From Macrococcoides bohemicum (GTDB lineage Bacteria > Bacillota > Bacilli > Staphylococcales > Staphylococcaceae): a DNA stretch of 64,000 bases. Location: positions 124,001 to 188,000 of the forward strand of contig NZ_PZJG01000001.1 in the NCBI RefSeq assembly GCF_003259675.1. The letters are read 5' to 3'. A program made the translations under genes and the position numbers. The notes beneath the pieces were generated by a model, which had not been told where the DNA came from, searched no databases, and saw only the letters and a program-made list of their open reading frames with translations. Below, piece by piece: positions 47,966-49,532 of the stretch (position 1 is the first letter of the stretch; each line of letters starts with the position of its first letter).

Positions 47966-48574
47966 ATGTACAAATTTTTGGCAACGCTTATTTACTTTGT
48001 AACAAATATTCTATTACGTAAAGTTAAAGTAATAGGTAAAGAAAATGTCCCTAAAAATGAAGCGTTTATCGTTACATGTAATCATAGAAGTATGGTTGAA
48101 ATTATTATACTTGCAATGGCACTATACCCAAGAGAAGTGCACTATATGGCGAAACAGGAATTGTTTAAAGGAAAGTTACTTGATAAGTTCTTTAGATCTG
48201 TGAATGCATTCCCTGTAAACAGAGCGAATCCAGGACCATCAACAATAAAGACGCCAGTAAAGTTAATTAAAGAGCATAAGATTGTTGGGATATTTCCAAG
48301 TGGACAACGCGCAGATAATGCACCGATGAAAAAAGGGGCAGCCACTATTTCTGTAATGAGTAAATCTAAACTATTACCGGCAGCTTACGAAGGACCGATT
48401 AAATTTAAAGATGTAATATTTGGAAAAGAAAAATGTTATATTATGTTTGGTGAACCAATTGATAGTCAGACTTTTACTGCACAATATAAGAAAAATGAGG
48501 CAATTGAAGAGATTACACAAACATTAGAAAGTAAAACAAATACATTAATAACTAAATTAAAACACGAAGCGTAA
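47966..48574 (+). CDS. plsC: 1-acyl-sn-glycerol-3-phosphate acyltransferase (PlsC family), HX4E variant
   Basis: 202 residues. An N-terminal hydrophobic segment, then the acyltransferase motif I CNHRSMVE, where H40 is followed by E45 instead of the usual Asp (NHX4D), and motif III FPSGQR in place of FPEGTR. Other PlsC blocks (MAKQELFKGKL, VNAFPVNR, KKGAATISV, LPAAYEGP) are normal. It makes phosphatidic acid for membrane lipids. CAAGGAGCAC precedes ATG 47966. The last codons (KLKHEA) lie in a 41-bp palindrome shared with the convergent gene. Confidence 0.88.
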   Translation: MYKFLATLIYFVTNILLRKVKVIGKENVPKNEAFIVTCNHRSMVEIIILAMALYPREVHYMAKQELFKGKLLDKFFRSVNAFPVNRANPGPSTIKTPVKLIKEHKIVGIFPSGQRADNAPMKKGAATISVMSKSKLLPAAYEGPIKFKDVIFGKEKCYIMFGEPIDSQTFTAQYKKNEAIEEITQTLESKTNTLITKLKHEA

Positions 48575-48596
48575 TTATTACGCTTCGTGTTTTAAT
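48556..48596. terminator. 41-bp perfect palindrome: bidirectional terminator that also encodes two C-termini
   Basis: Arms 48556-48575 and 48577-48596 are exact reverse complements around a single T at 48576. The plsC stop (48572-48574) and the opposing stop (48578-48580) lie symmetrically, three bases apart. Both proteins therefore end in LKHEA. T-rich ends (TTTT) exist on both strands. Confidence 0.9.
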
Positions 48597-48805
48597 GTTT
48601 TGTAGAGATACGTCTCTTTGTCCTCTGGGTAAATAAATTCAAGTTTTATGATTTGAGGTTGGTTTGTTTTACTGGCGATAGCCTGTGTTTTTTCTTTGAT
48701 TTTACTAATATATGATACTTTCTCAACTTCATTTTGAATTAATTTATATTCTGTTTTTTCATCAGATGAGTAAGGATAAGACGTTTTTAGTACGATGATA
48801 CTCAT
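48578..48805 (-). CDS. 75-residue protein of unknown function, probably sigma-B controlled
   Basis: 75 residues, charged, no signal or membrane segment; predicted beta-alpha-beta with Lys/Glu-rich helix (YSSDEKTEYKLIQNEVEKVSYISKIKEKTQ) and strand IIKLEFIYP. No family was recognised. A good ribosome binding site (GGAAGTGGGTGAAG) precedes ATG 48805 and a sigma-B-type promoter lies 48 bases further upstream, which supports it as a real gene. It is convergent with plsC and shares the palindromic terminator with it, so the last residues LKHEA are the same as those of PlsC. Confidence 0.7.
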   Translation of the reverse strand: MSIIVLKTSYPYSSDEKTEYKLIQNEVEKVSYISKIKEKTQAIASKTNQPQIIKLEFIYPEDKETYLYKTLKHEA

Positions 48806-49070: not shown

Positions 49071-49490
49071 ATGACGATACATAGGATGAAAAAAGAAGAT
49101 TCAGTAATAGAATTTATTGAAACGATAGAAGATAGAAAACGTAGAAAAGACTGTATTAAATTATTGGAAATCTTTGAAGAAAGCTCTGGATTTATCGGAA
49201 AGATGTGGGGCCCTAATATTATTGGGTTTGGAAAATATCATTATAAGTTAAACAATCAAATAGAAGGAGATGCACCGCTCATCGCATTTGGTCTGAAGAA
49301 AAGTAAAATAAGTTTGTACTTTGCTCAGGATAATATTAATCGTGATCGTTATTTAAAGGAGTTGGGGAAACATACACTAGGGAAGACGTGTGTGTATATA
49401 AGTGATATAGAACAAATTGATGTTAAAGTATTAAAACATCTTATTGTAGATTCAATGAAATATCTTCAAAATCAGTATGATAATACATAA
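49071..49490 (+). CDS. DUF1801 domain protein
   Basis: 139 residues. The central MWGPNIIGFGKYHYK and the ending in AFGLKKSKISLYF are typical of the DUF1801 (YdhG-like) fold. Function unknown. GGGGGTG precedes ATG 49071. It is monocistronic between AT-rich intergenic sequences; its 3' end is closed by a terminator shared with the convergent 68-residue gene. Confidence 0.82.
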   Translation: MTIHRMKKEDSVIEFIETIEDRKRRKDCIKLLEIFEESSGFIGKMWGPNIIGFGKYHYKLNNQIEGDAPLIAFGLKKSKISLYFAQDNINRDRYLKELGKHTLGKTCVYISDIEQIDVKVLKHLIVDSMKYLQNQYDNT

Positions 49491-49532
49491 AAAAATAATG
49501 AATCAAGTTAGGCACTTGTTTCATTATTTTTA
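49490..49532. terminator. Bidirectional terminator between the DUF1801 gene and the 68-residue gene
   Basis: AAAATAATGAAtCAAGT pairs with ACTTGtTTCATTATTTT around TAGGC, with one mismatch. Confidence 0.8.

Follow-up and report, generated by a model that had tools for sequence, protein, structure and literature searches.

In the stretch of Macrococcoides bohemicum DNA analysed here (64,000 nucleotides, called the window as a whole, to which the coordinates refer), the gene of a plsC-like acyltransferase and that of a 75-aa protein converge, and both end inside a palindrome that is predicted to form a terminator hairpin on either strand. The features of this junction are as follows.

47966..48574, + strand: gene of a plsC-like acyltransferase, 202 aa (Pfam Acyltransferase, PF01553)
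48578..48805, - strand: open reading frame of a 75-aa protein with no family assigned; predicted fold beta-beta-alpha-beta-beta
48556..48596, no strand assigned: palindrome and predicted bidirectional intrinsic-terminator hairpin (from sequence, terminator scoring and fold)
48557..48571, + strand: TTA AAA CAC GAA GCG, coding LKHEA of PlsC, in the 5' arm
48581..48595, - strand: the same codons on the other strand, coding LKHEA of the 75-aa protein, in the 3' arm
G+C-containing part of the hairpin: CACGAAGCG/CGCTTCGTG, with an A-tract at 48559-48562 and a T-tract at 48590-48593

The two genes and their common palindrome

The acyltransferase domain is recognised in the plsC product with an E-value of 6.4e-24, and this protein ends in ...LITKLKHEA, with its TAA stop at 48572-48574. 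The opposing protein ends in ...LYKTLKHEA, with its stop at 48578-48580 on the - strand; both stops lie inside the palindrome, and the spacing from stop to stop is 3 nt. The final six codons are the same (TTA AAA CAC GAA GCG TAA), being read from 48557 to 48574 in plsC and from 48595 down to 48578 in the opposing frame. Coordinates and translations therefore bear out the original prediction in that the stops are symmetric and three bases apart and that both proteins end in LKHEA. The identical tails and the mirrored stops arise because the arms are exact and the frames are symmetric about the centre, that is, placed at the same distance from it modulo three, which has a one-in-three chance; since both follow from the same two properties, they count as a single observation.

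The 75-aa protein matched no family in Pfam or NCBIfam at an E-value of 0.001, and an alignment of 15 members of its family gave only weak matches, each of a single member (best E 0.0097). An AlphaFold2 model built from 15 sequences describes a small fold with confidence (mean pLDDT 84.2), for which a search of the PDB gave no match with an E-value of 0.001 or less. The mean pLDDT of residues 71-75 is 54, compared with 75-91 elsewhere, and the model contains no helix or strand past residue 69. As judged from the model and the sequences, the tail fits an addition made by reading into the stem, rather than a segment under selection of its own. A search of 108 genomes of the bacterial family recovered the gene in 16 (E of 0.001 or less), in all of which it is adjacent to plsC and convergent with it.

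The palindrome itself is an exact one of 41 bp, as originally described, with 20-nt arms (48556-48575 and 48577-48596) that are 100% complementary around a 1-nt centre. It scores as terminator-like on both strands, and the RNAs of the two strands are predicted to fold with -25.2 and -24.7 kcal/mol, compared with means of -5.8 and -5.5 for shuffled sequences (z-scores of -9.3 and -8.7). The predicted fold is a stem of 19 pairs with a 3-nt loop at 48575-48577, in which the two stop codons stand opposite each other and form the three pairs closest to the loop, at the stem tip. Three properties by which a bidirectional intrinsic terminator can be recognised are present: a G+C-containing stem-loop with a T-tract on both strands, the T-tract being short (TTTT, then AATG, then TTTT); a position at convergent gene ends; and compensatory stem change among relatives, which lends modest support. 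The claim of one shared bidirectional terminator is thus supported to the extent of a predicted, terminator-like hairpin on both strands whose stem codes for both C-termini.

In 20 first-order Markov copies of the window, the longest exact arm measured 8-13 nt, against 20 nt in the real sequence, and the palindrome is not a product of chance. It is, at the same time, unexceptional for its own genome: when loops of up to 8 nt are allowed, 9 perfect inverted repeats in the window have arms of at least 13 nt (23, 20, 20, 19, 16 and so on), among which the palindrome ranks joint second in arm length, and several of the 9 have the A-tract/T-tract outline of two-way terminators. Searched against its own genome, the palindrome matched nowhere but at its own locus (on the two strands), and the 464 kb sampled contain the core CACGAAGCGT solely as the palindrome's two arms. 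A dispersed repeat or an uptake-signal hairpin is ruled out by this lack of a second copy in the genome and by the confinement of the core to its own arms.

The junction in related genomes

The junction was compared in 16 genomes, a count that leaves out the records L014-L016, which repeat genomes already present or their junctions; the genus of the window (Macrococcus/Macrococcoides) is sampled by 9 genomes. A hairpin lies at the plsC/75-aa junction in all 16. Exact arms of at least 13 nt were found by script in 11 of them, and in the other five (G003, G002, G001, G011 and G009) the hairpin is imperfect and was assessed by eye. Both C-termini lie within the stem in five of the 16 (G000, G007, G006, G005 and G003), which amounts to five of the nine genomes of the genus. 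In three of these (G000, G007 and G006) both proteins end in LKHEA, in G005 both end in LKNEA, and in G003 PlsC ends in LKNEV and its partner in LKNEA. The five shared-tail genomes are not resolved as one clade in a tree of PlsC.

The shared tail is absent in the other 11 genomes with the gene pair, where the 75-aa protein ends in ...YYYKA or similar and PlsC in ...TMK or similar. In 10 of these 11 the hairpin is situated between the two stops or does no more than touch them, and in G001 only one of the two frames, that of the 75-aa homologue, extends across the hairpin, giving the C-terminus LNALQLDI. Because 11 of the 16 genomes with the gene pair share no tail, the tails look dispensable from these comparisons. 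It had been proposed that an ordinary intergenic terminator and unrelated protein ends in relatives would mark the arrangement as a recent chance event. Such relatives are indeed the majority (10 of 16, with one more intermediate), but five genomes retain the shared state, with compensatory changes, which does not quite suit a recent accident. The related claim, that the palindrome forces both C-termini to evolve together, holds in part: the tails do differ together among the five genomes, but their identity is not strict, the C-termini being identical in four of the 16 and near-identical in G003.

Covariation was examined in the stem of the five junctions, where 94.5% of the cells are paired. 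Of 22 tested pairs, 15 are invariant, two are doubly changed, one is changed on one side, and four depart only through unpaired cells, three on the outer margin and one adjacent to the loop. The real value was reached by 9 of 500 shuffles for the covariation score, by 15 of 500 for the percentage paired and by 70 of 500 for the number of doubly changed pairs. Both doubly changed pairs fall in the H/N codon, where the change at the first position exchanges H and N in both proteins simultaneously and that at the third position (AAC or AAT) is silent in both genes. The one-sided change, in G003, turns a C-G pair into U-G in the plsC RNA and gives a C-A mismatch in the other RNA; it is because the U-G pair lets them differ that the last residue of PlsC is V and that of its partner A. 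With five sequences, three of them nearly alike, the covariation is consistent with a constraint on the stem, to which it lends modest support.

Hairpins at convergent gene ends in the genus

Convergent pairs were surveyed with a home-made codon-usage gene caller, unchecked against annotation, in 2.06 Mb of the genus: G002 contributed 800 kb, G001 and G007 400 kb each (a single contig in the case of G007), and the window's own genome 464 kb, all on the contig of the window. For comparison, 400 kb was taken from each of G018 and G019, which belong to a different genus of the family. When both C-termini are taken to lie in one hairpin if at least 6 coding nt of each gene are inside it, this holds for 2 of 61 convergent pairs in the own genome, 1 of 47 in G007, 5 of 105 in G002 and 2 of 46 in G001, and for none of the 57 pairs in either G018 or G019. 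The genus total of 10 in 259 corresponds to 8 distinct loci, the plsC pair and an msrA/mprF pair each being seen twice. Compared with 0 of 114, the 10 of 259 rows give a Fisher p of 0.036, and 9 of 259 would give 0.062; at the level of distinct loci, with 8 of 257 and 0 of 114 (p 0.11), enrichment in the genus is not significant. A stop codon lies at least partly in a two-way hairpin at 107 of 306 gene ends of the genus, as compared with 26 of 144 in the other genus (Fisher p 0.0002, with related genomes counted as independent).

The plsC junction is thus one case of a habit of the genomes of this genus. In the sample of the own genome, a hairpin is found at 44 of 61 convergent junctions, 36 of which have the A/T outline on both sides. 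"Extreme compaction", as the original prediction put it, overstates the case, given that stops are separated by 3 nt or less in 3 of these 61 convergent pairs, the plsC pair included; nor is the arrangement extreme or unique when the four-genome sample holds 8 such loci. The frames are symmetric at five of the 8 (LKHEA, NNRTS, KRP, KK and VK), and a shared peptide of at least three residues occurs at three, namely LKHEA, NNRTS (L121) and KRP (L063), the latter two being near-terminal. At the KRP locus, a cytidylyltransferase-like protein faces a HIGH nucleotidyl transferase.

Other junctions of the same general form were observed. At L121:11230-11290 (G001), a glycosyltransferase gene and a glycerophosphotransferase gene converge with a 4-nt overlap in the hairpin, and the two proteins have the near-terminal NNRTS in common, followed by one differing residue. 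Homologues of msrA and mprF (assigned by Pfam) also converge with a 4-nt overlap in a hairpin, at L054:5199-5232 in the own genome and near position 1858 of L105 in G002; their tails differ because the frames are asymmetric. Within the window, the next convergent pair likewise has a common hairpin (49491-49531), where the gene of a DUF1801 protein ends at 49490 and a 68-aa frame on the - strand ends at 49508, with its last seven codons inside the hairpin.

Interpretation and comparison with known systems

On balance, plsC and the convergent 75-aa gene very probably share one bidirectional Rho-independent terminator, whose stem codes for the five-residue tails of both proteins. From the sequences, we infer that termination takes place in vivo, that neither tail has a function in its own right, and how the tails arose. 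Each transcript would form a hairpin of 19 bp that leads into a short U-tract, with a predicted 3' end in the T-tract, about 19 nt beyond the stop. Both frames may have come to run into the stem in an ancestor of the five genomes, or in that of a wider group with later loss, and at the one-in-three odds mentioned above the frames would have been symmetric about the dyad, such that complementarity kept for termination would yield an identical stop and a nearly identical peptide on either side. While coupled ribosomes can block the formation of such terminators (as reviewed in PMC7858274), the polymerase of B. subtilis is described as running ahead of the ribosome, with terminators a few nt from stops (Johnson et al., 2020, as cited in PMC7858274), and the median distance from coding sequence to transcript end in that species is given as 38 nt (PMC12207403), compared with the 19 nt or so predicted at the plsC junction. 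The terminator could then work inside the reading frames of this genus since RNA polymerase would outrun the ribosome, as in B. subtilis, and every ribosome reaching the stop would have to open the hairpin.

A broader proposal, for the compact genomes of this genus, would make shared terminators a peptide-copying device, in which stems invade both frames and, given symmetric frames, impose one C-terminal peptide on two unrelated proteins, the symmetric phase is favoured, and the hairpin opened by ribosomes ties mRNA decay to translation. A symmetric phase would pair third codon positions with third, so that the stem could change silently in both genes, and a translating ribosome would open the hairpin that guards the 3' end of the mRNA. 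One of the two double changes at the plsC junction is of this silent-in-both type. The bias toward symmetric frames is not significant, either for the five of 8 loci (one-sided binomial p 0.09) or for the 3 of 6 with at least three residues on each side (p 0.32), and we consider the proposal unlikely.

It is distinctly unlikely that the complementary 3' ends of the two mRNAs cross-regulate, one transcript setting the stability of the other through tail-to-tail pairing or as a substrate of RNase III. On paper the ends can pair, as had been suggested: the predicted ends are complementary over about 35 nt, and the heteroduplex, at -54.1 kcal/mol compared with -21.0 for each hairpin, would be favoured if the molecules met. 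Regulation through 3' complementarity is documented for mscL/arfA of E. coli (PMC10070815), and according to a review, 3' UTRs overlap more often than 5' UTRs do in the related S. aureus (PMC7154746). The pairing is, however, non-specific; each end, being palindromic, can form a duplex with its own copies that is almost as stable (-50.2 and -50.0 kcal/mol), so that specificity for the partner is slight, and the intramolecular hairpin is a competing fold. Such complementarity is, moreover, a property of any bidirectional terminator, and outside the five genomes a hairpin is kept at the junction while the shared tail is not. Cross-regulation of plsC and the 75-aa gene through mRNA pairing is accordingly unsupported.

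A functional role of the shared tail, as a tag for localisation, turnover or assembly that selection on the peptide keeps alike in both proteins, is very improbable. G005 and G003 do show the H/N difference in both proteins alike, but such a matched change is also what constraint on the stem predicts, and the final residues of G003 differ (V and A). The tails are absent in the other 11 genomes, that of the 75-aa protein is modelled with low confidence, and other shared peptides occur in unrelated convergent pairs of the genus. That the palindrome is a chance formation or a mobile repeat rather than a terminator is almost certainly wrong, for although its particular sequence is missing in part of the genus, chance arms fall far short of it, the genome holds no second copy, and compensatory changes run across genomes.

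The junction is therefore best read, with the bidirectional terminator as its basis, as a known kind of element that overlaps both coding ends in symmetric phase, and the shared tail appears to be an ordinary, if neat, by-product of genome compactness. It offers a small, clear case of RNA structure dictating protein sequence, in which a two-way hairpin sets the ends of two unrelated proteins. More generally, terminator-like hairpins often lie on or inside coding ends in this genus, an arrangement that would fit poorly with a ribosome following close behind RNA polymerase.

A literature search of titles and abstract openings gave, among the matches listed, no paper on two convergent proteins with a common terminator-coded tail, and the cited parts of a paper on runaway transcription and purine bias contain nothing on terminators at stop codons (PMC13323073). 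Several described systems share some properties of the plsC junction. In brfA of B. subtilis, a Rho-independent terminator likewise overlaps the 3' coding region; according to its description, transcription of brfA ends before the stop and yields a non-stop mRNA, whereas the stop at the plsC junction precedes the T-tract and the terminated mRNA would keep it (PMC6881298). Control of this type, by termination that leaves a non-stop mRNA, is ruled out here, as the stop, next to the 3-nt loop at the stem tip, precedes the T-tract by 15 nt. The mscL/arfA genes of Gammaproteobacteria also converge; their 3' ends are complementary, and stem-loops lie where the coding sequence ends or beyond it. In that system it is the 3' UTR of mscL to which the 3' coding sequence of arfA is complementary, regulation has been measured, and the cited part of the account mentions no palindrome-coded shared tail (PMC10070815).

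Closer likenesses are found in the Bacilli. The terminators that accompany runaway transcription in B. subtilis, as reviewed in PMC7858274, resemble the plsC junction in having a hairpin too near the stop for a coupled ribosome, but at the plsC junction the overlap enters the coding region, and on both strands, and runaway transcription in this genus would be an extension from B. subtilis. Bidirectional intrinsic terminators of convergent genes in Bacilli have the same A-tract, G+C stem and T-tract on both strands, as well as compensatory stem changes, and those of B. cereus are reported to be more conserved than one-way terminators (PMC5381666, PMC1852404). Compared with these known bidirectional terminators, the stem at the plsC junction additionally codes for the five last residues of both proteins, in symmetric frames.
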